DNA from: an uncultured Woeseiaceae bacterium
Lineage (GTDB): Bacteria; Pseudomonadota; Gammaproteobacteria; Steroidobacterales; Woeseiaceae
Direction of reading: 5' to 3'
Assembly: GCA_905480215.1 (NCBI GenBank)
Contig: CAJQPL010000077.1
Location: 1 to 50,835, forward strand
DNA length: 50,835 nt
The position numbers and the translations under genes are program-made. This document shows, one piece after another, positions 2,596 through 17,466 of the stretch. Position 1 is the stretch's first letter. Each line of letters begins with the position of its first letter. The notes below the pieces were generated by a model, which was not told the origin of the DNA, did no database searches, and was given only the letters and a program-made list of their open reading frames with translations.

Positions 2596-3303
2596 TTAGT
2601 TCGGGAGTGCAGCGACCGATTGCGTATCGGAGATGAACAACTTGACGCTAACTCGACGTTCCAGCGCATAACTATCAACGTCTTGATTTTGCGCAATAGC
2701 TTCGCCATGTGCGGAACTGCTGATACGTGTTGGCTGGACGCCTGCACCGATAAACAGATTGCGCACGAATTCAACACGCCTCTCAGATAGAGATTGGTTG
2801 TAAACCGCAGCACCGCGTTCGTCGGCAAAGCCGTCCAGCTGTATCTGTACGTCGGGCATCTTCGCTAGAGTGGCAGCCATTTGCGCTAAGCGATCACCAG
2901 TGGTGTCCGTTAGTGCGAACTCATCAGTACGAAACAGCAAGTCCATATCAATACCAGCCTGCATGAGGTTAATAAGTTCCGGACGCGCAGTATTCTGTAA
3001 GCGCTCGATCTGCATCGAGAGCTCATCATTACCACTCTGCAGCGCAGCAACGCTTTGTTGCGAAGTTTGTAGCGAGTCATCGAGCGCCGCAATTCGCAGC
3101 GATTTCTTGTGCGCAGACTCACCGAGCTTCGCGCCTACAATTGCACCGACAAAAAAGCCCACCGGGCCTCCCGCAAGAGCGCCAACGACGGCACCGCTGC
3201 CAACACCAATATTCTCTTCCCTGGATGCATCCGCGGATGCCGTTTGTGCAAACAGTGCCAGAATTGCAACACTGGTAATAGCGATTGAGATTGTGTAACG
3301 CAT
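2596..3303 (-). CDS. OmpA-family protein with glycine-zipper segment
   Basis: A 235-residue exported protein. Residues 1-25 form a signal peptide ending in QTASADA. Residues about 35-68 are a glycine-zipper segment (GSGAVVGALAGG, then GAIVGAKLGE) of the kind that inserts in or packs against membranes, followed by a short coiled coil. Residues about 115-225 are an OmpA C-terminal domain. The Asp of FADERG and the Arg of LSERRVEFV are in the places expected for binding diaminopimelate in peptidoglycan. There is a good ribosome binding site (GGAGGATAGG) before the ATG. The sequence resembles the OmpA-like protein of the proteobacterial dedicated sortase cluster (PdsO), but no sortase is present. 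It is the last gene of the long minus-strand cluster, 132 bases after the VWA gene, so it could also have its own promoter. Confidence 0.85.
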   Translation of the reverse strand: MRYTISIAITSVAILALFAQTASADASREENIGVGSGAVVGALAGGPVGFFVGAIVGAKLGESAHKKSLRIAALDDSLQTSQQSVAALQSGNDELSMQIERLQNTARPELINLMQAGIDMDLLFRTDEFALTDTTGDRLAQMAATLAKMPDVQIQLDGFADERGAAVYNQSLSERRVEFVRNLFIGAGVQPTRISSSAHGEAIAQNQDVDSYALERRVSVKLFISDTQSVAALPN

Positions 3304-3435: not shown

Positions 3436-4428
3436 TTAACGCGTGCTGAGGGCCACGAAGGTTCCGCCATTGGTCGCGCATACAGCGCGCATGAAGGTCG
3501 CGAAACTGGCAGCGGTTTGCGGCACGTTGGCGGAACCGAAGCGGCCCGGGAACCCGACACCGTGTATACGAATCAGTCGTTCGCCGTCGGCGTCTTTTGT
3601 ATTCAAGCGACTAATTGTCGCCATTGCCTGGTCGATTGAGCGGCTACCCTGGTAGTCGTCGCCGAAGACATAGATACTGATTTTCTTGTCCGGGGCACGA
3701 AAATCCCGGATCGCCGCTTCAATGCCATTGACCGGGTTACTGTCACTGGTTGCATTCCACGATCGCATTCGCGTCACTATCGCCTGTCGTCGTCCCGGCG
3801 AATCTGGCATCCAGCGCGCTGTGTACTCTCTAAACATGTACACGCCATCATCGTTCATGACCTGTATGCCCTTCACCTTGGGGTAAGCCTCAAGCGTCTC
3901 ACGCAACATCTTTTGCGCCAGCGTCCAACTGGAATCCAGCATGCTGCCAGAGGTATCGATAACAAAGATGATGTACTCGCTGTCGACCGGGATACCGGCA
4001 ACGGCGTCTTGATCGGGTCTGCGATAATAGGGTTGCAGACGTTTTTGTTCTTCCGACAATAGCTGCCTTGCAGCACGCAACTCGCCGACATCGATAGTCT
4101 CGTCTTCGTCCTCCTTGCTAGCATTGTACTGGCCGCGGACTTTGCTCAGGTCACCTTCAAGTTCGCCTAACTCGATTTTAGACGCAGTCGCCTCAACCTT
4201 CACTTCCTTAAGCGTGCGATCCAGGACGGTCGTGGTACCGCGAATTTCAAACAGCTCTTGCTGCAGCAAGGCAATCAACTTCATTAAATCCTGTTCGGCT
4301 TCTTCGACCACCACCGGCTCGTAGATCTTGCTTAGCACCAGGAGCAAGATAATCGCGCCGAAGCCGCAGCAAATGCAGTCCAGAAAGGACAGACTGAATG
4401 CTTGGATATCTCTGCGTCGCCTCGCCAT
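3436..4428 (-). CDS. Membrane-anchored VWA protein 1 with ExbD-like N-terminus
   Basis: A 330-residue protein. A basic start (MARRRR) and the motif SFLDCICCGFGA (residues 14-25) lead into one membrane segment (about 18-35), then a coiled coil (about 42-130) and a VWA domain (about 150-325). The VWA domain carries an intact MIDAS start, DTSGSM, at residues 158-163, and FGDDYQG further on. The F-L-D just before or inside the membrane segment resembles the proton-carrying Asp context of ExbD/TolR (PFID). Topology by the positive-inside rule puts the VWA domain in the periplasm. It begins 11 bases after the neighbouring VWA gene, which has the same architecture. VWA domains bind protein ligands through a divalent metal. 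The stator role is inference from the ExbB/MotA-like gene in the same cluster. Confidence 0.85.
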   Translation of the reverse strand: MARRRRDIQAFSLSFLDCICCGFGAIILLLVLSKIYEPVVVEEAEQDLMKLIALLQQELFEIRGTTTVLDRTLKEVKVEATASKIELGELEGDLSKVRGQYNASKEDEDETIDVGELRAARQLLSEEQKRLQPYYRRPDQDAVAGIPVDSEYIIFVIDTSGSMLDSSWTLAQKMLRETLEAYPKVKGIQVMNDDGVYMFREYTARWMPDSPGRRQAIVTRMRSWNATSDSNPVNGIEAAIRDFRAPDKKISIYVFGDDYQGSRSIDQAMATISRLNTKDADGERLIRIHGVGFPGRFGSANVPQTAASFATFMRAVCATNGGTFVALSTR

Positions 4429-4439
4429 CTCTTCAGCCC

Positions 4440-5537
4440 CTATGGCCAGTCGCGACTAACAGTCATAAAGGAACCCCGCGTTCTTAGCGCCAATGCCCAG
4501 AACGAAACTGAGGCCTGCGAATCACCATTCATCGGATACAGCATGATATTGATGGGAATTCCAGAAGGAATGAGGTCAACGGCGCTAGAGAACAGATTCA
4601 ATCGCTCACCACCACCAATTACCGATTTCGATGAGGTCGGCGCATCCATGGTTGGCATGGAATCCACCAGAATAATGACATTGTCAGGGCGCGGATTCAT
4701 GTCTCTAATGACCTGAAACGCAGCGTGCATATTGGTGCCGTTTTTCGGCACCGTGCGTCGCAGCGTTTGCCTTGCCTCATCAAGCTGATTACCGTCACCC
4801 GCGGTTAGCCACAATCCCTCAGTGCCCTTGATGACCGGCTCAGCCGTATTGTTGAACATGTAAATTTGATACTGGCTGTCGGCTTTGAACTGCGTGGTTA
4901 ACCAATCGACACTCGCCACCACCTGACGCCATTTCCTAGCCAACAACTGCTCTGACTCAGGCAGGGTTTTAAATTCAATGACGTTAATGATCGTTTCACT
5001 CAACATGCTTGCCGATCGATCCACCAGAATCAGTGTTCGATCACCGCCCAGTTTCAGACCCGTCAAATACTGGCGGTCGCCGTCGCCCTTGAATGAACGA
5101 ATTTGCTCACCAAGCGCATCCTGCTCTCTCTTGGCCGCCATCAATCGACGTACCTCCTCTTCAAGCGACTTGATGTCTGAGCGCAATTTCTCGACAGCCT
5201 CAATTTTTGCCAATGTATCTTTGTCGTATTTCGCGAGCTCGGCTTGCAGCTCAGCGATTAAGGCTTTGATAATTGAAATCTGGTCTTTCGCTTCTTCCTC
5301 TTCCGTTTTCAGTTTTTGAATAGACGTCCGAGCCAGCGCCAAATTCTTACGCCCTTCCAGGACCTCGACTTCCAGCTTGTTCGTTTCCGCCTGCAAAGCC
5401 ATCGACTGGTCGGTCGTCAAGTCACTCTGCGAATTAATGATCATGAAGAACAGAATGACCGCGCCGAAACCGCAGCACATGCAGTCGAGGAACGACATGC
5501 TAAAAACATCTCCCGAACGCCGGCGCCTACGAGCCAT
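4440..5537 (-). CDS. Membrane-anchored VWA protein 2 with ExbD-like N-terminus and long coiled coil
   Basis: A 365-residue paralogue of the next gene. It shares the start MARRRRR and the motif SFLDCMCCGFGA (residues 15-26), with an Asp at 18, then a membrane segment to about 35. A long charged coiled coil spans about 45-145. The VWA domain follows (about 160-360) with the MIDAS-type motif DRSAS at 173-177, so the Asp and both Ser ligands are kept although the Gly of DxSGS is replaced by Ala. The first 11 bases overlap the end of the Hsp70-like/FHA gene, which indicates coupled translation. The coiled coil is about as long as the periplasmic linker in stator proteins. Two similar VWA proteins made side by side suggests a heterodimer, since ExbD- and MotB-type subunits work as dimers. 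Confidence 0.85.
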   Translation of the reverse strand: MARRRRRSGDVFSMSFLDCMCCGFGAVILFFMIINSQSDLTTDQSMALQAETNKLEVEVLEGRKNLALARTSIQKLKTEEEEAKDQISIIKALIAELQAELAKYDKDTLAKIEAVEKLRSDIKSLEEEVRRLMAAKREQDALGEQIRSFKGDGDRQYLTGLKLGGDRTLILVDRSASMLSETIINVIEFKTLPESEQLLARKWRQVVASVDWLTTQFKADSQYQIYMFNNTAEPVIKGTEGLWLTAGDGNQLDEARQTLRRTVPKNGTNMHAAFQVIRDMNPRPDNVIILVDSMPTMDAPTSSKSVIGGGERLNLFSSAVDLIPSGIPINIMLYPMNGDSQASVSFWALALRTRGSFMTVSRDWP

Positions 5538-6891
5538 CGGCGTCTTCCACAGAGATCATGCGTAATTCAAAACCTGGTGTTCCTATACGAATCAGGTCGC
5601 CAATTTGCAGGACAGCAGAAGCATCGATTCGATGCCCGTTAAGAAAAGTTCCGTAGCGGCTTTGATCGCTAATCACATACTGGCCATTTTCAGCACTAAG
5701 CACACAATGCCGTCGCGATACGCCCGGCATCTCTTGCTGCAAATCAAGGCAACGCTCGCCTTCTGCCGCCTGTGTTCCAAGCACCAGTGGTTTGCCGCTT
5801 AGCTGAAAGGCCTTGTGCCCGAATAATAGATGCGTTGGCTGCCCACCATTGCCGCCTGCGTCAGCAGCCTCAACAGCAACAGGAGATTGATCCCATGGCA
5901 TGTGACGCGTCAACGTCACACCACCCTTGGCGTCGCCTGGTTTGCAGCGCTTAATGAGCCCGCGCGCCGTCGCGCCGGGTTCCAGCAAGAATACCTCGCC
6001 ACCTACTCGCGTTTTGAGAGTATCCGCTAGGCCCGGCATACGCGCCGCCCGATCAGATAGCTGAATAGCTGGCGTTTCCTCAGCCCGGTACAAGGCACGA
6101 AGACTACTGACGATACTTTGGTAAACAGGTGCCGCGGCAGCGACTAGCTGCAGAGAATCGATCTCTGCCTGATGGCTGACGCCGCGAAACTCGAGCTGCA
6201 ATGGAACGAGCGAAGAACTCGATGCTTGCGCCAACCATTCTGGCATGCTGACTTTCAATGCTTGCTCGGTTTCCGCAGTATGCAGAGGATCGAAGCGCGA
6301 CTGCTGCACGAACACCTCTGCAACAACCTTCAACCAAGTCTCATGTAGCCGCACCAGTCCACAGTCGTCAATAATCTCAGTGCGTTCAACCTGGCTCTGA
6401 CCTTCCTGCATGAGTCGCGTCAGCATGCTGCAATGCAATCCAAGGTCAATGTGAACCGGCACGGCATGTTGATACTGGCGACGTGTCGCAGACACAGCTG
6501 CATCACTCATCGCCACGATTTCAATGCCAAGCTCGGCGGCAATTCCCAGCAGCAGCGCAAGATTCTCATTGCTCATATACGCTGGCACTGCAATAGCCAA
6601 TTGATCGCCCGGTGCCGCCACTTTCTTCCAGATGTGCTCAAGCTGGCTACTCACCAGATCGGCGCTACTCATGTGTTGAAAGCGTTGGTCCGTGAGTGAA
6701 TTGCTACTAAGGGATGACCAGTATCGGTTTTGTATTCTACGCGGCTTCAGGCTAGCGTTCCTAAAGGCCTCTACCCCGGTGACAATGTGATCATCTTCCA
6801 AAAGGGCAAACCCAGGTTCCGAATACAGGATTTTTTCGTCATTGACGACAACAATCCCAGCATCGTTTAGATGTGCGGCCAACAATCCCAT
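5527..6891 (-). CDS. Hsp70-like (ASKHA) domain fused to a C-terminal FHA domain
   Basis: A 454-residue cytoplasmic protein in two parts. Residues 1-320 follow the order of an Hsp70 nucleotide-binding domain: a TGVEAF segment near 38, AIAVPAYMSNEN at 99-110 (compare VPAYFND of DnaK), an EIVAMSDAAVSA segment near 124, IDLGLHCS at 148-155 in the phosphate-2 position, and EPGATARGLI near 304. The N-terminal phosphate-1 glycine/threonine motif (DLGTT in DnaK) is replaced by LNDAGI, and the GGGT of phosphate-2 is lost, so ATP hydrolysis is doubtful. There is no Hsp70 substrate-binding domain. Residues about 357-448 are an FHA domain with SRRHC at 392-396 and GTFLNG at 414-419, which should bind phosphothreonine. 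The kinases encoded upstream are the natural source of that mark. Confidence 0.8.
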   Translation of the reverse strand: MGLLAAHLNDAGIVVVNDEKILYSEPGFALLEDDHIVTGVEAFRNASLKPRRIQNRYWSSLSSNSLTDQRFQHMSSADLVSSQLEHIWKKVAAPGDQLAIAVPAYMSNENLALLLGIAAELGIEIVAMSDAAVSATRRQYQHAVPVHIDLGLHCSMLTRLMQEGQSQVERTEIIDDCGLVRLHETWLKVVAEVFVQQSRFDPLHTAETEQALKVSMPEWLAQASSSSLVPLQLEFRGVSHQAEIDSLQLVAAAAPVYQSIVSSLRALYRAEETPAIQLSDRAARMPGLADTLKTRVGGEVFLLEPGATARGLIKRCKPGDAKGGVTLTRHMPWDQSPVAVEAADAGGNGGQPTHLLFGHKAFQLSGKPLVLGTQAAEGERCLDLQQEMPGVSRRHCVLSAENGQYVISDQSRYGTFLNGHRIDASAVLQIGDLIRIGTPGFELRMISVEDADGS

Positions 6892-6904
6892 GGTCGACTA
6901 AGTC

Positions 6905-7705
6905 CTAATCTGTCTTAAGGTGACGTATAACTTTTTCGTCACAATAGTTTTCAGTATCGAATACCAGACGTTCCTGCGTTAGTTGCAACTGGTGCACCAG
7001 AAACATCAGGAAGATACTAATAAGCAAAGCGATGTAAGTAGAGTTAAAGGCGACACCAAGGCTTTGAGTTACACCCGCAATATCACCCTGCACTGCCTTA
7101 TCCGCTTGCGCCAGCGCTTCACCAATACCGCGTACCGTACCGATAAAGCCGATCGACGGAATAGCCCAGGATATATATCGAATCATCGCCAGTTCCGATT
7201 CGAGACGTTCCGCTTCAGATTCGCAAATCGTATGCGTGCTGCTGGAGACGTCCTGGATGTTTCGTGTCGAACTGAAGCGCCGCAATGCGTTCAATAGTGC
7301 TCTCGGCAATAGCATGTTCTGCCGGTCTTCAGGCAGTGCCTGAACCTGACGCGCGAACTCCCGCGTATCTTCTGGCAGAATTCGCATCCCTTCAGCGACC
7401 GGAACTAGATCGACCTCCAACAAACGGCGTTCACTGTTAATTTGTACGGCTTTGTAACCCATGATCGCCAGCGCCCAGAACATCAGGATAAAACAGGATT
7501 CCTGCTCAAGATCCTTGACCAAAACCCACGGACTACGCACGCGAACGAAATCCGGGTCTTCCTGAGCCTGCATGTTCTGCTGTTCGATAATTTCAGCTGC
7601 AGTCGGCCTGACTACTGAAACGTAGAACGCATGCACGACGATGATCGCAATGATCAATGCAAATAGCTGAAAAACAAACTCAACCGGGATGTCCTTTTTC
7701 TTCAT
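6905..7705 (-). CDS. MotA/TolQ/ExbB-family proton channel protein
   Basis: A 266-residue inner-membrane protein with four predicted membrane segments (about 9-30, 68-87, 176-198 and 217-240). Residues 182-197 (IPSIGFIGTVRGIGEA) match the conserved third-helix motif of ExbB/TolQ (G-x-x-G-T-V-x-G-I), and VTQSLGVAFNSTYIAL (212-227) matches the pore-lining helix with its Thr/Ser residues. Family members form pentamers round a dimer of a single-span Asp-bearing partner and turn proton or sodium flow into rotation. No canonical ExbD, TolR, MotB or ZorB gene is nearby. The two VWA proteins downstream have the right membrane topology and Asp to be the partner. It starts with ATG 26 bases after the small acidic exported protein gene. 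Confidence 0.88.
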   Translation of the reverse strand: MKKKDIPVEFVFQLFALIIAIIVVHAFYVSVVRPTAAEIIEQQNMQAQEDPDFVRVRSPWVLVKDLEQESCFILMFWALAIMGYKAVQINSERRLLEVDLVPVAEGMRILPEDTREFARQVQALPEDRQNMLLPRALLNALRRFSSTRNIQDVSSSTHTICESEAERLESELAMIRYISWAIPSIGFIGTVRGIGEALAQADKAVQGDIAGVTQSLGVAFNSTYIALLISIFLMFLVHQLQLTQERLVFDTENYCDEKVIRHLKTD

Positions 7706-7731: not shown

Positions 7732-7974
7732 CTAAATATCGACTGGAAACGGCACGGACTGATGGTACGAGATCTTGTCAGTCGGCTTAAAAGCTTCCTC
7801 ATCATCTTCGGTATAATCTTTGGTTTTATTCAACTCGAAATCATCAGTCTCATAATCCTCTGCTTCATCGACTGCCTCTGGAGCCGGCTCTGCCGCATCC
7901 TCATCAGTCGCATCATCCTGCGCCCAAACGACAGTCGCAATTGCAAACAAAACGATCAACATGTATCGATGCAT
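7732..7974 (-). CDS. Small acidic exported protein, family unknown
   Basis: An 80-residue protein. Residues 1-19 form a signal peptide (hydrophobic LIVLFAIATVVW, likely cut after WAQ). The mature part is dominated by Asp and Glu (for example DDATDEDAAEPAPE and DYTEDDEEAF) and ends in SVPFPVDI. A strong ribosome binding site (AGGAGGTGAGG) precedes the ATG, which with the signal peptide makes it a real gene. It sits between the FGE-like protein and the ExbB-like channel. The charge suggests binding of cations or of a basic partner in the periplasm. I do not recognise a family. Confidence 0.7.
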   Translation of the reverse strand: MHRYMLIVLFAIATVVWAQDDATDEDAAEPAPEAVDEAEDYETDDFELNKTKDYTEDDEEAFKPTDKISYHQSVPFPVDI

Positions 7975-8050: not shown

Positions 8051-10477
8051 TTAGTCGGCGTTCCGAGCTATCCGAAATCCAACATCTACTCGCGGCTCTA
8101 CCCCGTAATCCCGATAACTCATACGTAATTGTGTAATGCCGGCGTGCCGCCAACTCGAACCGCGTATCACATGGCTGTTGCCACGTCGCGGGCCGACCGG
8201 ATCAACCTCTGGCTCCGTCATGCCGGGTGTCGGCACCGTGTACCAATCGTTAACCCACTCTGCGACATTACCACCTCCATCATAGATACCGAGGGAACTC
8301 GCCGCGAATTTTCCAACCGGCGCCGTCGATGCAGCGCCATCATCGAACTTCGGAATGATTGATGGCACCAGATTCCGTGCTGACAAATCAGCGTAGTTGC
8401 CACTTTCCTTTGGTGGTGGCCACGCTTTACCCCATGGGAACTTGCGTGGCGCGGGGCGTTCTTCGAAGCGAATCGCCCACGCCCATTCGGCTTCCGTCGG
8501 CAGACGATAGCCGTCCGTAAATGGATATACCGCAACCCACTTGCCAAATTCCTGTTTGTAGACCGGTGTGCGCCCTTCTCTCTTGCTGAGCCAATTGCAA
8601 TACTGCACCGCATCCGACCAGCTCACATTAGCTACCGGGTTATCGTCCGCCGCCAGCGATATATGGACGTCAGCGCCGGGGTCATGATTTTTTCTAAACT
8701 CAGAAAACTGCTTATTCGTCACTTCATGCGTCGCAATCAGATATGGCGATGCGATTGTTACCGGCCGAATAACTTCATTGGCACGCCGTCCGCTCTCAGC
8801 TCGGGAAGCCCCCATCGAAAACGTACCGCCTTCGATTCGCCGCATCACCTGTCCGGCTGCCGTTTCCGCGGTTTTCGCCACTGCGTCTCTTTCAATCGCC
8901 TCCAACGACCGCAGATTGGCAGAAACAGTTTGCGGATAACCAGGTCGTGGCGTCACTGTCCGCGACCAGTCGAGAAAGCCCTGACGCTTCACTTCAATCC
9001 GGTGCGGCGCTGAACTTAAACGTAAAGTCGTCTTGCCAGTGCCACGGGCACGCCCGTCAACATATACCGTAGCATCCGCAGGACTGACCATTAACGTTAC
9101 CGTACCAACTCGTGCTGACATATCGACGGTCATTGTCTCGCTGGCCGCCGACTCAAGACGCATGCTGCGACTGGCGACGCCATATCCCGCCTTAGACATA
9201 CCAATCTGATAGTCAACGTCAGGCGTTAAAGACAGTGTTATCGGTGATTGCCCACGATAGCGACCGTTCACAGTGACGTTGGCGCCACGCGGAATGGTAT
9301 TCACCCGCAATCTAGCGTCTGCCGCTTGTAGCCGAATCAATGGCAGCGTCTGTCCAACGTTCGGTTCGGCAACAATGTTGCCATCCCACGCACTAAATCC
9401 ATCCTTAACAACCGTAAGCTCGTGCGAACCCTCAATCAATTGAACGGTTACCGGTGTTACACCCACTTCGTCATCGCCCGAAAACACTGATGCACCGGAC
9501 GGCTCTGAACGGACCTCAACGTCAGCCCAGCGCGGAGTGAGTTGCACATGCACGGTCTCGACCCTGTCGAGACCGGTGACGTTTATGAAATCATTGAATG
9601 GAAGGAAGCGCTCCGACTCAACCCGCACAGAATGCTCACCTGGCTCCAGCTCTACAGGCCCATAAGGTGCCTTACCTACCAGCGAATCGTCGACCGTCAC
9701 AACAGCATCCACCGCGGGCTCGGTGATCAAAATCAGTTGACCAGGTTTTTTGCGCATCCTGAGGCGCACTGTCATCGACGGCTCATCGCCGACGACAAAG
9801 GTCTGGCCAATGTCGTAATAACCCTGTTTCTCGATGTTTACTGTGTAGTTGCCAGTGCGAAGCAATACGCGATCGCCAATTGGCAATCGAAACCAACCGC
9901 CGTCAATATTGAAATTATCAGGTTCACCCGGATCTATTTCGAATTCGACAGACTTCGAAGTAAACAAGAGAAATGACATCAGCAACAATGCGGATAGCCC
10001 AGCGCCGACAAACATTTTCAGCGGGCTGCGCTTGCTCTCATCACGTGCCAGACCCGTTTCAACCGCGCGACGAAATGCCGTCGGCGCAATAGATTCTTCG
10101 TCCGGGCTTACATTCTCCTCCGGCGCTACGGGTGGTTGCGTAACATAGGCGCTATCTTCGAGCCTGACATCCAGCACAACACGGCTGTCGCTGACCACAA
10201 CCCTGATTTTGCTGCCAAAAAACTGCAGCACATCACCATTCTCAAGACGGCGACTGGTATCCAACGGCGCGTCATTGATGTGCAAGGAGGCATTGCGCCC
10301 AACGGGCTGCACAAACGGCATGCCATCCAATAAGTCCAGCAACGCAATCGGCTCACCACCCGGACCTGGCAGGCGTAACTGACAATCGCTACCGGTGCCA
10401 ACTCGCAGCGGTAGCTGTGCCGAACTGAAGCTCTGCTCGCCCTGTACGTCCCTGATAACTAGATTGTCGAAACTCAA
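8051..10477 (-). CDS. FHA-like / transmembrane / four PEGA repeats / FGE-SUMF1-like protein
   Basis: An 808-residue single-span protein. Residues 1-105 are an FHA-like domain, with VGTGSDCQLRL at the usual GR-S position but a weak S-x-x-H. A membrane segment lies at about 153-173. Four PEGA-type beta repeats follow (about 245-315, 318-385, 388-455, 457-525), then a formylglycine-generating-enzyme/SUMF1-like domain (about 545-806) with GGTFSMG, EVTNKQF, GYRLPTEAEW, GNVAEWVNDW, RGSSW and GFRIA. The only Cys in that domain is at 627, and the two catalytic cysteines of true FGE are missing, so it is probably a binding domain rather than a sulfatase activator. The start is TTG, chosen because GAGGA lies 7 bases upstream and no earlier start exists. 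It overlaps the kinase stop codon by four bases. Confidence 0.85.
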   Translation of the reverse strand: MSFDNLVIRDVQGEQSFSSAQLPLRVGTGSDCQLRLPGPGGEPIALLDLLDGMPFVQPVGRNASLHINDAPLDTSRRLENGDVLQFFGSKIRVVVSDSRVVLDVRLEDSAYVTQPPVAPEENVSPDEESIAPTAFRRAVETGLARDESKRSPLKMFVGAGLSALLLMSFLLFTSKSVEFEIDPGEPDNFNIDGGWFRLPIGDRVLLRTGNYTVNIEKQGYYDIGQTFVVGDEPSMTVRLRMRKKPGQLILITEPAVDAVVTVDDSLVGKAPYGPVELEPGEHSVRVESERFLPFNDFINVTGLDRVETVHVQLTPRWADVEVRSEPSGASVFSGDDEVGVTPVTVQLIEGSHELTVVKDGFSAWDGNIVAEPNVGQTLPLIRLQAADARLRVNTIPRGANVTVNGRYRGQSPITLSLTPDVDYQIGMSKAGYGVASRSMRLESAASETMTVDMSARVGTVTLMVSPADATVYVDGRARGTGKTTLRLSSAPHRIEVKRQGFLDWSRTVTPRPGYPQTVSANLRSLEAIERDAVAKTAETAAGQVMRRIEGGTFSMGASRAESGRRANEVIRPVTIASPYLIATHEVTNKQFSEFRKNHDPGADVHISLAADDNPVANVSWSDAVQYCNWLSKREGRTPVYKQEFGKWVAVYPFTDGYRLPTEAEWAWAIRFEERPAPRKFPWGKAWPPPKESGNYADLSARNLVPSIIPKFDDGAASTAPVGKFAASSLGIYDGGGNVAEWVNDWYTVPTPGMTEPEVDPVGPRRGNSHVIRGSSWRHAGITQLRMSYRDYGVEPRVDVGFRIARNAD

Positions 10478-12921
10478 ATCTGTTCCTCACACTGGACGAT
10501 CACCGGCGCGCTCTCAATCTCAGGCGCCACTCGAAACTCCAGACGTACATCCCGGAATCCAGCGCGTGAGCCGACGGCGACATAAGTCCCTGGGCGCAGA
10601 TCGAGCTCTTTGCGCATAAAGTTGCCTAATCTGCCAACCTTGTAAATCGACACTTCGGTGACATTGTCCGATAACAGGCTCACTTTTAGCGGGGTCGCGG
10701 CTCGTTTCAAGAGGCGCAATAATTCGTCGCGTTGCATCCCGAGTCTCGGGCCAATTTCCGGGCGTGTTGCGATATCAACCACCAGCGACGTTGCCCGTTG
10801 CATTTGCGACGGCGCACTGAGTTTATCAGGCTCCTCGATCAACTTATCGAGTCGTGCATGCAGAGCACTCATTTCTCGTGCCTGCTGCAGTCCGTCTCTT
10901 GCGAACATCAATGTGTTGTCGACTTTTAAAATTTCCTCATAAGTCCTTATGACGGCATCCCAATGCTCATCCTGCTCGAGCGCCTGAGCTTCCAGCTCGA
11001 GCGTCGAGATATCGCTCAGACGCAACCCCTGGTCGACTTGCAGAAGCCCATCAACAGGCTCCGATGAACCAGGCATGAGTTTCTGCGCAACCCGAAAAGC
11101 AGCGCGCGCAGCAAGATAGTCGCCCATCGCAATCGCATCAAACCCTTCCGACATTCGTGTATCAAATTGCATTTTGGTGCGCGTCTTTTGCACTCGCAAT
11201 ATACCGTCCAGAGCAGGCTGCCAAACAGGATCCAATACTACGGCTTGCTCGAAACTCTTTTGTGCGGCATCCAGATCGAGGTCTTCCTCGTATTCAATTC
11301 CCTGCTCGACCAGCCGCAGCACCGCTTCGAGATTCTTGGCACGCTCATAGCCTGCCTGCGCACCCGCATGACTGGGAGTCACTGCAACGGCTAACTCGTA
11401 CCAGCGAAGTGCCTCGAGTCGCTCCCCGGCTGCAAAAGCCTCTTGTGCCTTTGCGTACGCATTGTCGAAGGTGGGTTCGATGCGCGCATAGAGGGGGTCA
11501 AGCACTGTCAGCGCGGCCAGGTAAAGCTCTTCTGCGTAGGCGAAGTCCTTCTTCAAATACGCCGCATCCCCATCCTTGTAGAAATCTCGAGCGGCTCGGT
11601 ACTCCCTTGGCGCCCAGCGCTCTGCGCCTCGCAGGTCCAATACTTCAAATGCTGACAACAGTTCGCCAAGTGTTGACTCAGCCATGAAACGCGCGCGCCC
11701 GTCTTTATCGAGGCCACTATAATCAGCGTCATTTTCCGAAAAAGTAACATTCTCATCATCGGCCAGTTTGCGCGAAGGCAAACCAATATCGCCTTTAACT
11801 CGCCGCCGTACGTCAGGATCCACATAGACACTTGGGCGATCCATGTCGTCGTCACGTAACACTTGCGGCGCCAAGGGCTCATCAATAATACGCGTTTCCA
11901 ATACCTTATTATTCACCGGCCGATCACTGACGCTGTTCGGCAGAACAAAAATCACCGCAACTAATATTGCAACTAACGCCAGCAGCGATAGCAATACCTT
12001 GTTGCGACCGAAGCCAGAATGCGACTCGACCATGCCCGCGGCAGTATCTTTCTCAAGCGGCTGATGTCGGACCGACTCAACCGACTCGATAAGTTCTGTT
12101 TGCGGTAAAGAACGGGCCACACCGCGGATAGATGCCACTTGCGGCGTAAAACCAGACGCCGTAAGTCTTTCACCGATTTCGACTGCGCTGGGTCGTAGTG
12201 CGGCATCCTTAGCCAGCATTTCTCCGACCAGCGCCACAATTTCAGACGGCAATTCCGAGCCGTCAGCAGTTCGTAATGGCGGCGGCGCGCTATGGCGGAT
12301 CTGCTCTCCGATTGCATCTGCAGACCACGGTGCTTGTCCCGACAACAATTCGTAAGTCAGACTGCCAAGCGCAAAAATATCGTCACTGCTGGCCGCCGGT
12401 AAGCCGTCCAGGGATTGCGGGCTTTGAGCGATCAGGGAGCCACCGCCATGCAATTGGCCACTAGCTGCTACAACGCCGAAATCACTCAAATACGGCGCAC
12501 CATTTGCGTCGAGCAAGATGTTCGACGCCTTAATGTCTCTATGCACAAGACCTTTGCTATGCAGGTAGGCAAGCGCCTGGGATATAAGACCGATCGGCCC
12601 AAGCACCTCCTCAGCAGACAAACCCGTCAGAACCCGGGCATCGGGCCCGTCTATAAATTGCTGGCTGAAGAAAGCCGCATCCGACTCACTGTGGAATTCA
12701 AATGCGCGTACGACATGGGCGTGCATCAATCGAATACTCGCCTGCCATTCGGCACGCAAGCGCTTTGTACTCTCGGTATCGCCAGCCGTGATCTTCAATG
12801 CGACTGAAGCTTTGGTTAGGCGGTCTTTGGCCAGCCAGATATGAGCGAGACTATCGCCGCCCAGTCGGCGTACAAGCGTGTAGCGGTCGGCTAGCTGAGT
12901 ACCTTTTTCGAGTTCGAGCAT
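10474..12921 (-). CDS. Transmembrane Ser/Thr protein kinase with TPR-like and PEGA-like C-terminal region
   Basis: An 815-residue Hanks-type kinase from the ATG at 12921. The kinase domain covers about 14-255, with the ATP lysine in VALKI (43), HRDIKASN (Asp 129), SDFG (Asp 147) and FALGSLTYELLSG. The glycine loop is atypical (LGGDSLAHIW). A membrane segment lies at about 309-328 (LLSLLALVAILVAVIFVL). The remaining 480 residues are probably outside the cytoplasm and look like TPR or helical repeats, ending in a PEGA-like beta segment (SLLSDNVTEVSIYKVGRLG). A GTG at 12969 would add 16 residues and overlap the upstream gene, with GAGG only 3 bases away. I prefer the ATG because it matches the usual kinase start. 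It is the likely writer for the FHA readers encoded downstream. Confidence 0.88.
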   Translation of the reverse strand: MLELEKGTQLADRYTLVRRLGGDSLAHIWLAKDRLTKASVALKITAGDTESTKRLRAEWQASIRLMHAHVVRAFEFHSESDAAFFSQQFIDGPDARVLTGLSAEEVLGPIGLISQALAYLHSKGLVHRDIKASNILLDANGAPYLSDFGVVAASGQLHGGGSLIAQSPQSLDGLPAASSDDIFALGSLTYELLSGQAPWSADAIGEQIRHSAPPPLRTADGSELPSEIVALVGEMLAKDAALRPSAVEIGERLTASGFTPQVASIRGVARSLPQTELIESVESVRHQPLEKDTAAGMVESHSGFGRNKVLLSLLALVAILVAVIFVLPNSVSDRPVNNKVLETRIIDEPLAPQVLRDDDMDRPSVYVDPDVRRRVKGDIGLPSRKLADDENVTFSENDADYSGLDKDGRARFMAESTLGELLSAFEVLDLRGAERWAPREYRAARDFYKDGDAAYLKKDFAYAEELYLAALTVLDPLYARIEPTFDNAYAKAQEAFAAGERLEALRWYELAVAVTPSHAGAQAGYERAKNLEAVLRLVEQGIEYEEDLDLDAAQKSFEQAVVLDPVWQPALDGILRVQKTRTKMQFDTRMSEGFDAIAMGDYLAARAAFRVAQKLMPGSSEPVDGLLQVDQGLRLSDISTLELEAQALEQDEHWDAVIRTYEEILKVDNTLMFARDGLQQAREMSALHARLDKLIEEPDKLSAPSQMQRATSLVVDIATRPEIGPRLGMQRDELLRLLKRAATPLKVSLLSDNVTEVSIYKVGRLGNFMRKELDLRPGTYVAVGSRAGFRDVRLEFRVAPEIESAPVIVQCEEQI

Positions 12922-12934
12922 CCGTCGTGACTGC

Positions 12935-14170
12935 TTATCCAGTCGGTTCCGGTATGCGCGCCGGAACACCTACCTCAATGTTCTGTGTAAAACCGGTTTC
13001 AGCTTCGTGAATTTCGCGGAGTAGTTTGCGCCAATTTTCATATTGAACTTCGGCGGTACCGGATAATCGGCGTTCCTGACCTTCGACATTCACGACCATT
13101 GGTGCGGCCTCATTGCCAAATGACTCCGACAATTCTTTGATTGCATCAAGGTGCAAGCCCGCTGCCCGATTTCTCTGGAACGCTGCCCACAGCGTGTTGA
13201 AGCCGCGCGTTACGCCCTGATACTGAAGTGCACGATTGATGTTGCGCGTATTTCGGCTGCCCGAACTACTGGTATCGATTTGCATTGAACCTGCAATTAC
13301 GATGACTCCGACCAATGCCTGCATTTGCGAGGATCGCTTTTCCTGGCGGAACTTGATCGACTCGGCCCGCGATGTCTTGCGCCAATTACGATATGGAATC
13401 GCAATGCCGTAGTAGAAGTTGGCATAGTGCTCATTAAGCGTATCGACTACCAGCCGATCGCGTTCACGAATCTGCCGCATACGCGCAACTGACGGATCAT
13501 TCTCAGCGGGCAAGCGAAGCACATTGACGATACCGTCCTCGTCACTGCCCAGATATCCGTTATAGGCAGTAGGCGACATGTCGGCGAAAAATTGCAGCTC
13601 AGATATCTGCCGCAATTGATGCAACTGCCGCGCCTCCATTTCTGCCGCGTGTTGCTGCAAATCATTAGCGAAGTCGTTGAATACCTTCTGATAAGGGTCT
13701 CGACGGCGATCACGTCTTTTTGAGTAAGAGGTAAGGCCTGTTTGTGCCTCGTACTTGCGCGAAAACCAATGTCGGCCAGCGGCGTCCGCTACTGAGAACT
13801 GAAGTTCGACGTATTCGCCATCCGATTTGACGATTTCGCCACTGACAATAATGTCCGTAAAAGCACTGGTTGAGGGAATAACCCGCACAGCGCCCCAGTG
13901 GCCCGCGTTTTGCAATGTCGTTTTCAGGTGATACGGAATATACATCGCCTCGGCGCGACGAATTTCATCGTAAATTCCTGTCTCCTGAGGATCATTATCT
14001 TCCGGTATCCCGGTTTGGAATTCGATTACACCGACATCGAGCAAACTCGCCTCATCGATAGACGATGTCGCGACCACCAATTCTGTTTCTTCCGCGACGA
14101 CCAGTTCCTGCATCGCACATCCGGCACCAAGAATTGTAAATGCTAAAGCTGTTATGACGATTCTTATCAT
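12935..14170 (-). CDS. Lipoprotein of unknown function
   Basis: A 411-residue protein. Residues 1-18 form a lipoprotein signal peptide with lipobox LGAGC, so it is probably tethered to a membrane and periplasmic. The mature protein opens with a region (about 45-140) that looks like a beta-rich lipoprotein domain (DVGVIEFQTGIPE, then VRVIPSTS and DIIVSGEIVKSDGEYVELQ), resembling the pattern of proteins that sense or bind at the envelope. A long basic helical part follows, with RDRRRDPYQKVFNDFAN near 175. A hydrophobic stretch (ALVGVIVIAGSM, about 288-300) may be a buried strand rather than a membrane span. I do not recognise a named family. Its place between the glycine-rich lipoprotein and the kinase, with a 14-base gap on one side, ties it to the same operon. 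Confidence 0.75.
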   Translation of the reverse strand: MIRIVITALAFTILGAGCAMQELVVAEETELVVATSSIDEASLLDVGVIEFQTGIPEDNDPQETGIYDEIRRAEAMYIPYHLKTTLQNAGHWGAVRVIPSTSAFTDIIVSGEIVKSDGEYVELQFSVADAAGRHWFSRKYEAQTGLTSYSKRRDRRRDPYQKVFNDFANDLQQHAAEMEARQLHQLRQISELQFFADMSPTAYNGYLGSDEDGIVNVLRLPAENDPSVARMRQIRERDRLVVDTLNEHYANFYYGIAIPYRNWRKTSRAESIKFRQEKRSSQMQALVGVIVIAGSMQIDTSSSGSRNTRNINRALQYQGVTRGFNTLWAAFQRNRAAGLHLDAIKELSESFGNEAAPMVVNVEGQERRLSGTAEVQYENWRKLLREIHEAETGFTQNIEVGVPARIPEPTG

Positions 14171-14184
14171 TGCTGTTGCCAGTC

Positions 14185-15156
14185 CTATTTAAGCCCTTTG
14201 TACTTTCGGTACTCCTCCCAATAGCGTTCTCGCCGCTCCGGGTCGTCTTCTGCCAGCGCCGCTTCTCGAATCTGACGCGCCACTACATCGTCAAAAGCGC
14301 CTACCTCAATATCCTCTGGGGTGCGTGCCTGTTTTTGCTCTTCAGTCATGCCATCGAGCGGTCCGGCCTGTTGCTGTTCGCCGCTGACGCCGCCGCCAGC
14401 ACCTGAGCCATAGCCGCCACCGCCGCCGGATGCACCTGCCGCTTGCTCGCCGAGGCCGATCGAGCCACCGCCGCCACCAGTGCCATCGCCAAAGCCTTCG
14501 GTATCTCGGCCGACCGAGGAGACCTGCCGCTGCTCTTCACCGATGGCTTCATCAAAATCGCCGACTGACTTGTCGAGTTCTTCACCGAGCTGTTCTGCAC
14601 GATCGGGATCACCTGGGAATTGACCGATACCCTCATCGCAGCCGGCGCCGCCGCCAATGCCGCCGCCCGCTATACCGCCATCCTGACATTCCGTACCACC
14701 TTCACCGCCGGCACCTGCGCCGCCAGCTCCTGGCATACCCATACCGGGCATTTGAATACCGCCAGTTGGCATTGTGCCTCCCGATGCGCCACCCATACCG
14801 CCGCCGGAAGCTCCGCCACCCGACGCTCCACCGCCTGAAGCTCCGCCGCCTGAAGCTCCGCCGCCCGACGATCCACCACCGGAAGCTCCGCCAGCGGAAG
14901 AACCGCCGCCCGATGAACCACCGCCAGACGAACCACCACCTGAGGAGCCCCCGGATTCGCCACCGGAAGAACCACCGCCGGAGGAGCCACCGCTGGGCAT
15001 CGGCAGGCTAGCGCCACCGCCGCCCGATGAACCACCGCCAGAGTTATAGGTCGGAGCCGTCGAGCCGCATCCAGCCAAAACGAGAATTGAAGTAGCAACC
15101 ACTGCGCTCGATAGAGAAATAGCAGCAGGTTTTTTAGCGGTAATTAAAGATCTCAT
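14185..15156 (-). CDS. Glycine/serine-rich repetitive lipoprotein
   Basis: A 323-residue lipoprotein from the ATG at 15156, which has GAGG 8 bases upstream. An in-frame TTG at 15237 would add 27 residues ahead of a signal peptide and is unlikely. The lipobox LAGC places the lipidated Cys at about residue 30. Residues about 38-140 are a low-complexity tract of GGGSS and GGGAS units, with further Gly-rich stretches to about 270. The C-terminal 60 residues are charged and more ordinary (GPLDGMTEEQKQARTPED, then a Glu/Arg-rich helix to the end). The Gly/Ser tract is likely a flexible spacer between a membrane anchor and the C-terminal helix. No enzymatic domain is visible. Repeat number in such tracts often varies between strains. 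Confidence 0.75.
   Translation of the reverse strand: MRSLITAKKPAAISLSSAVVATSILVLAGCGSTAPTYNSGGGSSGGGGASLPMPSGGSSGGGSSGGESGGSSGGGSSGGGSSGGGSSAGGASGGGSSGGGASGGGASGGGASGGGASGGGMGGASGGTMPTGGIQMPGMGMPGAGGAGAGGEGGTECQDGGIAGGGIGGGAGCDEGIGQFPGDPDRAEQLGEELDKSVGDFDEAIGEEQRQVSSVGRDTEGFGDGTGGGGGSIGLGEQAAGASGGGGGYGSGAGGGVSGEQQQAGPLDGMTEEQKQARTPEDIEVGAFDDVVARQIREAALAEDDPERRERYWEEYRKYKGLK
14781..14993 (-). repeat. In-gene tandem repeats encoding GGGSS/GGGAS
   Basis: Imperfect 15-base units run in tandem, written on the plus strand as variants of CCGCCTGAAGCTCCG and CCACCGGAAGAACCG. They encode the Gly/Ser spacer of the lipoprotein. The opposite strand reads as a proline/glutamate-rich open frame, which is a by-product of the repeat. 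Confidence 0.85.
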
Positions 15157-15346
15157 CGTCTCGGCCTCGTTTGTTTCTAATTGCTTTGGCATTAAAACAG
15201 CCGTGGAGTTCCGCAACCACAGCATCAATACTGCCAATTAGTAATAGTACTCTCCTGAACTCCTTGCATCATCCATTGATTTAGCTATTGTTAAACGAAA
15301 AAATACATTAACTAATAACCGTAAATTATTGATATAAATAACTTTT

Positions 15347-16168
15347 CTACTTGGTCGGATTGCGATACAAAATAAATGACAAATCGTCGGGCTTGCTCGG
15401 CTGCCCATCTCGCACATCTCGCATTCGTTGCTCGGCCAGATCGACCAGGGCATCAGCCGCCGCCGACAATGGGCCTTTACGGACAATTTCAACAATCTCA
15501 TGCACATGAACGTTGTCCATCAGACCGTCGCTCGCGACCAAAACGGTATCCCAAAGGTCAAGTTCGACCGCCGCTCCAACGTCGATTCTCATATCAGTAG
15601 TGCCGATGAAATTTGACACCAAGTGTCTTTCCGCGTGATGCAAAGCCTCACGTTCGTCCAGAAATCCTGCTTCGACTGCAAAACCGGTTGGCGAATGCGC
15701 GGTGGTCTGCAATTTCACCAAGCCACGTTGTCCTGTCACTATCGCCTCTGAATCACCGATTTGATACGAGCGTGCCTGGCGTCCTTCCAGCGTAATGACG
15801 GTCATCGTCGTCGCCGAACCGTTGGCGAGTGCCAGCACGGCGTCATTGGCAGCCTCTATCCCATTGAGAATTGCGGTACGGAGCAGCGTTGTTTTGTCGA
15901 TCGCCGCACTCAGCGACTCTGCCAATGTATTAATAGCGGTAAGGGACGCGCGTTTGCCGGCCGGCAAACCGCCTGCGCCGTCGGCGACAACCAGTACCGC
16001 TGCCGCTGGTCCATACCGCAGTAACGCCACGCTGTCTTCGTTTCCGCTTGCCTTGCCGGGATCACAATTCGTGTAAGCGATCGCCGCGCCACCAGCGACG
16101 AACGTGGAAACACAATGGGGCTCAAAAGCACCATCGAGCAACAGCGTTTCGTAAATCGGCTCAGACAT
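15347..16168 (-). CDS. PP2C-family Ser/Thr protein phosphatase
   Basis: A 273-residue cytoplasmic metal-dependent phosphatase. Family motifs in order are GNEDS (42-46), VVADGAGGLPAG (60-71, metal-binding Asp 63), ATTMTVITLEG followed by IGDSEAIV, VLVASDGLMDNV with its metal-binding Asp, and DDLSFIL near the C-terminus. All expected Asp ligands are present. PP2C enzymes remove phosphate from Ser/Thr and usually oppose the Hanks kinase encoded next to them. It follows the zinc-ribbon kinase gene by 11 bases, a classic kinase-phosphatase pair. A 190-base A/T-rich gap separates it from the Gly-rich lipoprotein gene, so an internal promoter may lie there. Confidence 0.9.
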   Translation of the reverse strand: MSEPIYETLLLDGAFEPHCVSTFVAGGAAIAYTNCDPGKASGNEDSVALLRYGPAAAVLVVADGAGGLPAGKRASLTAINTLAESLSAAIDKTTLLRTAILNGIEAANDAVLALANGSATTMTVITLEGRQARSYQIGDSEAIVTGQRGLVKLQTTAHSPTGFAVEAGFLDEREALHHAERHLVSNFIGTTDMRIDVGAAVELDLWDTVLVASDGLMDNVHVHEIVEIVRKGPLSAAADALVDLAEQRMRDVRDGQPSKPDDLSFILYRNPTK

Positions 16169-16179
16169 TTTGTTGTTAG

Positions 16180-17466
16180 CTACTCACGTCGGACGGGCTC
16201 GCGACACCAGGCACAGTAATTCCAAAACTCGCCCGCGATACCCCAATCGCAGGATTTACATTTCTTGCGGCTGCTCTTCAAATTCCAACTCCGCCGCACT
16301 TTCTTGCGACACCAGGGGCAGTAGCGCATGAAGGGCATCAGGTCCCCGCCGCAGCGGCTGTTCTCGCACCGTGCTGTATAACGCTTGTCCGGATAGGTGC
16401 GACTGCTTTCTGTAACGAAGCCCGGACCATAACACCACGAGCAATAGTCCCAGTCATTCTTGACACCGCGCTCGCAACGCGGACAACTCGATGCCATGCG
16501 CGATTCCGAGCCGCGCGACGGATTGTCGAACCCGCACCATGGACAGCATTGCATGCTCTCACTGACCGGACCCTCGCAACGGCGGCAAGCATGACGAGTT
16601 TCCAGCTGTTGCTTGAATTGCCGCTGGAATTCACGCCATTGCATCTGCCGCCACGATGTTCCACGACGAGTTCCATTAGCCGCTTTAGCCCTCTTTTGTT
16701 TGCGGGCCGTACTTTGCGCCCGGGCAAAGGCAGCCTGCATCTGCACAGCATCGCGATAGCGCAACTTCGGATCGAGTTGAATCGCTTTTTTCAGCACTTC
16801 GATAACTTCTGGCCGAACTCGCTTCGCAAGCCTGTCGTGACCGGCCAGAGGCCACTCAAATGGCCACTCCGGCAAGCGTCCCGCTAATAGTCGATAAATG
16901 ACGAGTCCCAATGAGAAAACATCCGACTGAAATTTGGGCCTGCCCATTGCCTGCTCGGGTGCAATGTAATCGATGGACCCGGATCCGGATGCCTTTAGCG
17001 TCCGTAAGTTGAATTTGGCAAATCCAAAGTCAGCCAACTTTAATTGGTTATCCGGAAACAGGATGTAGTTCTCTGGCTTGATGTCGCAGTGGATGATCTT
17101 GTGCTCATGTGCATATGCGATTGATGCCAGCGCCTGGCCTGCGAGATCAAGTGCCCGCACGGTTGAAATGCGACGCTCGATACGATCACCCAATGACTCG
17201 ATTCCCAACTCCATCGCAATCACAAATTTGTCGTCGATGTAACTCGCATTAAGGACCGACAAAATATTGGGATGGCGTAGTTTGGTCGCTACCTGCACTT
17301 CATGCAGAAATTCTTCATGGCCAGTGAGGTGGTCCGATTTCGGAATCTTTAACGCGACCTTGATCTTCTGGATTGTGTCTTGTGCTCGATAAACATCCGC
17401 CAGTGGTCCAGATGCAATTCGACCCAGGATTCTATACTTACCGATTTTCTGCCGTGCTTTTAGCAA
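16180..17466 (-). CDS. Soluble Ser/Thr protein kinase with four C-terminal zinc ribbons
   Basis: A 428-residue protein with no membrane segment. The kinase domain covers about 10-245, with ATP lysine in VALKI (40), HCDIKPEN at 126-133 (Asp 128), ADFGFA (Asp 146) and GSIDYIAPEQA. The usual HRD Arg is Cys, making it a non-RD kinase that may not need activation-loop phosphorylation. Residues about 294-428 hold four CxxC...CxxC ribbons (CRRC/CPWC, CPRC/CSWC, CENSRC/CPWC, CKSC/CAWC), each likely to bind one zinc. The start is TTG. It is in the same frame as glpK, six bases after the glpK TAA with no stop between, and no other start precedes the kinase fold. Translation probably restarts after glpK. 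Kinases with zinc ribbons beside PP2C genes also occur in TerY-P modules. Confidence 0.85.
   Translation of the reverse strand: MLKARQKIGKYRILGRIASGPLADVYRAQDTIQKIKVALKIPKSDHLTGHEEFLHEVQVATKLRHPNILSVLNASYIDDKFVIAMELGIESLGDRIERRISTVRALDLAGQALASIAYAHEHKIIHCDIKPENYILFPDNQLKLADFGFAKFNLRTLKASGSGSIDYIAPEQAMGRPKFQSDVFSLGLVIYRLLAGRLPEWPFEWPLAGHDRLAKRVRPEVIEVLKKAIQLDPKLRYRDAVQMQAAFARAQSTARKQKRAKAANGTRRGTSWRQMQWREFQRQFKQQLETRHACRRCEGPVSESMQCCPWCGFDNPSRGSESRMASSCPRCERGVKNDWDYCSWCYGPGFVTESSRTYPDKRYTARCENSRCGGDLMPFMRYCPWCRKKVRRSWNLKSSRKKCKSCDWGIAGEFWNYCAWCREPVRRE

Follow-up and report, generated by a model that had tools for sequence, protein, structure and literature searches.

Which protein works with a TolQ/ExbB-type channel when the usual partner gene is missing from its operon? 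This question is raised by a minus-strand run of tightly packed genes in an uncultured Woeseiaceae bacterium, on a 50,835-nucleotide stretch of DNA (hereafter the window) that is the entire contig C77 of a 2.17 Mb draft genome, ~65% complete. The run consists of G, L, K, F, a gene for a small acidic protein, C, H, VWA-A and VWA-B, with overlaps of a few bases between several adjacent genes. We propose, with a probability of roughly 70%, that these genes code for a trans-envelope motor powered by the proton motive force, in which a pentamer of C would enclose an axle made of one VWA-A and one VWA-B, and the VWA heads would act on lipoproteins of the cluster. The motor reading draws on sequence conservation, the predicted folds of C and VWA-B, gene linkage and the absence of the usual partner gene.

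VWA-B (3436-4428, minus strand) and VWA-A (4440-5537, minus strand) each comprise an anchor, a long helix and a VWA head, as judged from sequence and alignment together with a structural model for VWA-B, whose head carries DxSxS and is predicted to be periplasmic, and with Pfam for VWA-A. A preceding sequence-only reading of the window had pointed out that both proteins begin with MARRRR and share an SFLDC-x-CCGFGA segment leading into a single membrane span. All of this was borne out: both open reading frames (ORFs) open with MARRRR, the shared segment reads SFLDCMCCGFGA in VWA-A and SFLDCICCGFGA in VWA-B, and in each protein the anchor is the sole segment above the hydrophobicity threshold. 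The Arg-rich start ahead of the anchor would place the N-terminus in the cytosol. Profile comparison matched the two proteins along most of their length (E = 5e-29), and by this measure they are old paralogs.

The VWA domains assigned to both proteins were upheld by motif and, for VWA-B, by fold, but not by the formal Pfam criterion, with VWA-A at 26.9 bits against a cut-off of 27 and VWA-B at 20.4. VWA_2 matched 23/23 A-type members at E ≤ 0.01 and only 28 of 71 B-type members, and the DxSxS metal-site motif was invariant in the 23 VWA-A and 71 VWA-B sequences aligned. The AlphaFold2 model of VWA-B (mean pLDDT 83, mostly >90 in the VWA part) showed a VWA fold, with 62 PDB matches at E ≤ 0.001. 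The match at rank 1 is a capsid entry, its chain not named there; those below it are mostly proteins with VWA-type domains (inter-alpha-inhibitor, BatB, integrin I domains and CLCA1). The earlier description of the heads as adhesion domains was not supported in that wording, in that the predicted topology places them in the periplasm, where a periplasmic or outer-membrane partner would be likelier than a surface ligand.

The proposal that the anchors carry protons hinges on a single residue, D18 of VWA-A (codon 5484-5486, minus strand) and D17 of VWA-B (codon 4378-4380, minus strand), both putative proton carriers whose conservation had been set in advance as a test. No variation of the Asp was seen in any homolog anchor read. 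In an order set, gathered with full-length VWA-A plus adjacency and without motif selection, it was present in 50/50 distinct VWA-A and 49/49 distinct VWA-B sequences; because this set was assembled independently of the motif, the anchor pattern exceeds chance. A second, named set held 80 loci out of 572 relatives, in which F[LI]D was found in 73 of 74 VWA-A, an unbiased sample, and in 79 of 80 VWA-B, a biased one because one of the two VWA-B-derived patterns used to gather these loci contained FLD. The two exceptions, SLLD and SVLD, still have the Asp. What we regard as the best independent check of the residue came from f55, a clade in another class of the phylum that was retrieved with the full VWA-B profile (13/398 genomes). 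Here FLD was read in 12/12 readable VWA-A and 12/12 readable VWA-B anchors, while the Cys four residues beyond the Asp had become Ser in 8/12 VWA-A and 8/12 VWA-B, and the VWA-B motif had decayed to SSAFAA in the 8 Ser-bearing anchors. Retention of FLD despite these changed surroundings suggests that the fixed feature is the Asp, not CCGFGA.

Alignment of the anchors with an ExbD profile put Asp on Asp. The overall profile similarity to the five ExbDs of the same genome was not significant (7% probability for VWA-A and 0.6% for VWA-B), VWA-A with a score of 26.6 standing above three unrelated controls (16.1 to 16.9) and VWA-B with 18.1 hardly above them. Neither PF02472 nor PF13677 appeared among the Pfam families listed for VWA-A and VWA-B (for B-type members, the best 25 of 43).

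We next consider the channel itself. C (6905-7705, minus strand), which the sequence-only reading had placed in the channel family, is a MotA_ExbB member at 53.1 bits against a cut-off of 22.9, and Pfam, model and alignment all point to a channel of the TolQ/ExbB type. Its predicted model (pLDDT 91) was nearest to TolQ/ExbB, with a target TM-score of up to 0.68 and a Z of 14.4 to 8odt_A, and its helices would be compatible with four membrane spans, one more at the N-terminal side than in TolQ/ExbB. In a profile alignment with Escherichia coli TolQ (E = 0.001; residue numbers counted by hand), Thr190 fell on T145 and Thr223 on T178, the residues that in TolQ form a polar ring with hydrogen bonds to D23 of TolR (PMC12583513). 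Both threonines were unchanged in 87/87 alignment rows (the window included and some genomes represented twice) and in 7/7 f55 loci. C accordingly has both the channel fold and the two pore threonines of the 5:2 rotary motors MotAB, ExbBD and TolQR.

The reported lack of ExbD, TolR, MotB or ZorB in the operon was confirmed on contig C77, which contains no match to PF02472 or to MotB_plug (PF13677), and by a PADLOC scan of seven operon proteins, which returned no ZorB. To place this in context, all MotA_ExbB matches (69) and all ExbD or MotB_plug matches were collected from 11 genomes and distances were taken between match starts; the G190 channel was excluded because its contig ends just past VWA-A. 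An ExbD or MotB lay within 2.5 kb of 58 of the 69 MotA/ExbB-type channels. The 11 channels lacking such a neighbor were 10 copies of C and one channel of G088. For C the count within 2.5 kb was 0/10, the nearest ExbD or MotB being at least 31 kb off or absent from the contig, and VWA-A was found within 3 kb of C in 10/10 copies, with VWA-B beside VWA-A in 9 of them (the exception being G060). The orphan status of C beside VWA-A is the cleanest support for VWA-A and VWA-B as the axle. ExbD-type ORFs occurred near the cluster in 0/20 order loci and 1/80 named loci; the contrary-looking case, L069, has two of them nearby on the opposite strand.

Two other channels deserve mention in their own right. 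The G088 orphan (L144, G088:C1:970000-984000, ORF 6120-7323, minus strand) has an apparent TonB-like C-terminal fusion, judged by eye, and on contig C40 of G000 (L061, L062) a conventional channel is accompanied by two different ExbD proteins, in one of which Asn replaces the Asp.

Could the anchors instead flank the channel ring on its outside, as those of TonB and TolA do, with an ExbD encoded elsewhere as the true axle? A separate vWA family is predicted to behave in this way (PMC12204202), and ExbD genes do exist elsewhere in the genome. However, the edge-bound anchors described in that work carry a His-containing SHLS motif (PMC12204202), and none of the distinct anchors compared across the order and named sets (50 from VWA-A and 51 from VWA-B) contained His, Lys, Arg or a second acidic residue. 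Moreover, in the genome that the window comes from (65% complete) each of the five ExbD matches adjoins a channel other than C, and an invariant acid within the span would be hard to explain at a lipid-facing edge. We therefore consider a peripheral position of the anchors very improbable and return to VWA-A and VWA-B as the axle.

Whether the two proteins would share one axle can be approached through their co-occurrence. Both are present in 85 of the 86 loci with C. In genus g20 they lie on separate contigs in seven drafts, and in G060, a g20 genome where they share a contig, one VWA-A and two VWA-B are far apart, VWA-A standing with C and H at one site of the split cluster and the VWA-B copies at two others (L050, L213, L214); the VWA-B loci read in G060 and G068 contain no other cluster gene. 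Only VWA-B was recovered in that search from G075, G051, G019 and G177, with VWA-A fragments at contig ends for G019 and G177. Because 85/86 C loci carry both proteins and g20 keeps both even though they are apart, an asymmetric heterodimer of the kind suggested by the sequence-only reading is plausible. That the pair is mostly kept when the operon breaks fits a mixed A-B axle and would equally fit two motors sharing one channel, that is, C5-A2 and C5-B2 homodimers. In favor of the latter, VWA-A and VWA-B each carry the Asp, G060 has two VWA-B to one VWA-A with the VWA-B copies away from C, H and A, and in Myxococcus gliding AglRQ and AglRS could each, in theory, form a channel (PMC9389320). 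Against this stands the near-constant company of A and B, which fits an obligate pair without proving one. Homodimeric motors thus seem to us possible, if rather unlikely, and the mixed axle is the reading that we carry forward.

The cluster, summarized as G-L-K-F-C-(H)-A-B, occurs in several phyla. Of its remaining members, L (12935-14170, minus strand) is a predicted lipoprotein that belongs to no Pfam family and for which we found no convincing solved structural relative; its Cys18 is present in at least 90% of 41 aligned sequences. F (8051-10477, minus strand) spans the membrane once and contains four PEGA stretches plus an FGE-sulfatase-type domain, and the small acidic protein (7732-7974, minus strand), which has a signal-like start, was detected in 13/20 order loci and 43/80 named loci. 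Among loci extending at least 9.3 kb upstream, the full set of L, K, F, C, H, A and B was recovered from 15 of the 18 order representatives and from 41 of the 42 in the named set. These counts are not independent, as several loci come from related genomes and in some cases from the same genome twice; the same loci also supplied the HMMs of G, L, K and F. Desulfobacterales, Myxococcales, Kiritimatiellia, Phycisphaerales, Acidobacteria and Vicinamibacteria are represented among these long named loci. Gene order and strand differ in a few loci (L090, L098, L127), and genes were missed in the long loci L050 (L, K, B), L051 (L, K), L052 (H) and L099 (L). The f55 loci (L205-L210) keep G, L, K, F, C, A and B as far as the contig reaches, with H undetected. 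Distribution across the phylum is patchy (16/398 genomes, including the window's own); within one gammaproteobacterial order, VWA homologs were found in 155 of 196 genomes, these positives being matches to a VWA-A query, a few of them weak and possibly due to the paralog VWA-B alone.

Two other identities were considered for the locus. PADLOC gave only generic kinase and coiled-coil matches and weak ZorA matches, which do not make a defence system, and a mobile defence island is unlikely given that neither a search of the plasmid collection with VWA-B nor one of the phage collection with C gave a match. An OmpA-family protein encoded at window positions 2596-3303 (minus strand) adjoins the VWA genes and comes near the PdsO model, below its cut-off; a relative of this PdsO-like gene was seen in 5/20 order loci and 27/80 named loci. 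A sortase system is not claimed, because the matches to TIGR03788, a sortase-target model, and to PdsO fall below their own cut-offs (15 against 551.65 bits for TIGR03788 on VWA-B, far short, and 130.8 against 152.2 for the PdsO-like gene).

What, then, might such a motor act upon? The first gene of the run, G (14185-15237, minus strand; its start is probably an inner ATG), had been overlooked by the sequence-only reading. It encodes a Gly/Ser-rich lipoprotein with the lipobox LAGC and a conserved C-terminal motif (14191-14319), and it lies directly upstream of L in 72/72 loci that have L and at least 300 bp upstream (some genomes counted twice). A lipobox is recognizable in many members of the family, which often have a stretch rich in Gly, Ser and Ala and vary greatly in length, from 197 to 650 codons stop-to-stop in the 45 cases complete within their locus. 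They share a C-terminal motif of ~40 residues, rich in Asp and Glu, in which A21, E24, W34 and Y37 were invariant in 31 aligned sequences and for which no convincing solved structural relative was found. In the 196-genome order survey, where common descent of the genomes would inflate any p-value, the motif was present in 146 of 155 VWA-positive genomes versus 0/41 VWA-negative ones; the nine positives lacking it were G036, G069, G075, G136, G173, G177, G181, G186 and G192. G, a lipoprotein that combines a flexible tether with a fixed end and accompanies the motor across genomes, would be a natural candidate for the load.

Metal-site VWA domains usually bind an acidic residue of their ligand. 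One could accordingly imagine that the metal sites of the VWA heads grip the acidic C-terminal motif of G, and that the proton-driven A-B axle winds or pulls this flexible tether, whose other end is held in the outer membrane, with kinases and a phosphatase controlling the process in some lineages. Such a load system would be unlike Pal, TonB-dependent receptors or peptidoglycan; we put the idea forward tentatively and hold it to be doubtful in this specific form.

The genes that would exert such control are less constant. K (10474-12969, minus strand) combines a Ser/Thr kinase domain with one membrane span and a TPR part, and H (5527-6891, minus strand) has an FHA domain at its C-terminus, its N-terminal part being free of Pfam matches. 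A Pkinase match was obtained for 39 of 42 full-length K relatives; 25 of 70 K homologs, mostly ORFs of 350-600 codons and some split or cut by contig ends, failed the full-length filter, and the canonical HRD motif was found in 29/45 K. FHA was found in 25 of 33 H proteins. By eye, the N-terminal part of H looks actin/Hsp70-like, an assignment that has no Pfam support and is not claimed. Two accessory genes lie upstream of the run in the window, one for a PP2C phosphatase (15347-16168, minus strand) and one for a further Ser/Thr kinase, which has zinc ribbons (16180-17466, minus strand); the two recurred within ~8 kb in 3/3 additional loci from the window's family and in 0/13 others. Because so many K homologs fail the full-length filter and HRD is present in only 29/45, kinase control is not general, and regulation by phosphorylation seems to be an add-on confined to some lineages.

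This variability bears on a further explanation, namely that the cluster is mainly a signaling device akin to the TagQR-PpkA-Fha pathway of type VI secretion systems (T6SS), with the channel as a gated sensor and not a motor. TagR, in that pathway, has an FGE fold. The kinases, phosphatase, FHA domain, FGE-type domain and lipoproteins of the cluster do recall TagQ, TagR, PpkA, PppA and Fha, TagQ being an outer-membrane lipoprotein and TagR periplasmic (PMC11881912, PMC6657622). Yet it is the kinase and FHA parts that vary, H being undetectable in f55 and many K lacking a full kinase, whereas C, VWA-A and VWA-B keep the proton-pathway residues. The likeness to the T6SS threonine phosphorylation pathway, in which kinase, PP2C, FHA, FGE-type domain and lipoprotein likewise come together, is in our view an analogy only; here these parts are linked to a channel and a VWA pair. 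A primarily signaling role appears improbable compared with that of a motor.

The arrangement of channel and paired VWA proteins is not new, having already been proposed as a prediction: Williams-Jones et al. (2025) predicted two vWA families, the second of which, TPH-vWA plus TolQ, mostly consists of heterologous vWA pairs beside a tolQ-like gene, with neither tolR nor exbD, and in AF3 models shows a pore helix that carries an Asp, along with a Thr ring (PMC12204202). By its description, this family resembles the present one in the paired vWA proteins, the pore helix with Asp, the TolQ-like channel with a Thr ring and the absence of TolR, ExbD and MotB (PMC12204202). Its seed comes from Idiomarina, a name borne by none of the 80 records in our named set. 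The family differs in the surrounding genes, as the main text of that paper does not contain "kinase", "sulfatase" or "phosph", has FhaC as its single match to "FHA", and in its section 8 names no lipoprotein gene for the family; the authors state that deletion phenotypes have not been reported for their first family, and they describe none for the second (PMC12204202). A later review citing the work contains neither "von Willebrand" nor "vWA" (PMC12905483). In the literature searched we found no experiment on the motor family, and a full-text search, outside which many subscription papers and preprints fall and in which the G motif is not searchable as text, found no description of the conserved gene set including G. 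The motor reading is thus well supported and already proposed, and the addition made here is the gene set, G above all.

Comparison with better-known systems helps to place the cluster. With Tol-Pal it shares the channel fold, the pore threonines, the anchor Asp and the presence of lipoproteins, but VWA heads here replace the TolR domain, there are two different axle proteins and an extra N-terminal channel helix, and TolA and TolB were not seen in the cluster. AglRQS of Myxococcus gliding likewise has one MotA-type protein and two different axle proteins, each with an Asp (PMC9389320), although AglQ and AglS are MotB homologs, whereas VWA-A and VWA-B match neither PF02472 nor PF13677. Zorya ZorAB also couples a MotA-type channel to an axle protein; in the PADLOC scan of the seven operon proteins, by contrast, C had weak ZorA similarity and ZorB was missing.

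In the mechanism that we propose, C would form a TolQ-like pentamer, and the anchors of one VWA-A and one VWA-B, for which a 1:1 pairing is assumed, would provide a two-helix axle in place of TolR, ExbD or MotB. Each anchor Asp would be protonated at the ring formed by Thr190 and Thr223 of C, causing the axle to turn, and the long helices of VWA-A and VWA-B would pass this motion to the two metal-site heads in the periplasm. The heads may then engage lipoproteins that the cluster itself encodes, G being the likeliest load in view of its long flexible linker and conserved C-terminus, with L, F and K probably providing a scaffold in the periplasm and outer membrane. The kinases, the FHA protein and the phosphatase probably switch the motor in the window's group. 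In this scheme, the stoichiometry, the position in the pore, the proton flux, the rotation, the load and the control are what we infer.

Proton-driven 5:2 motors lie behind swimming and gliding, secretion, the uptake of nutrients and the maintenance of the outer membrane. The cluster would add a further motor of this kind, widespread in one gammaproteobacterial order and present in several other phyla. With an invariant Asp, a Thr pair and the lipoprotein G now recognized, the published motor idea is open to direct test and has a possible load.
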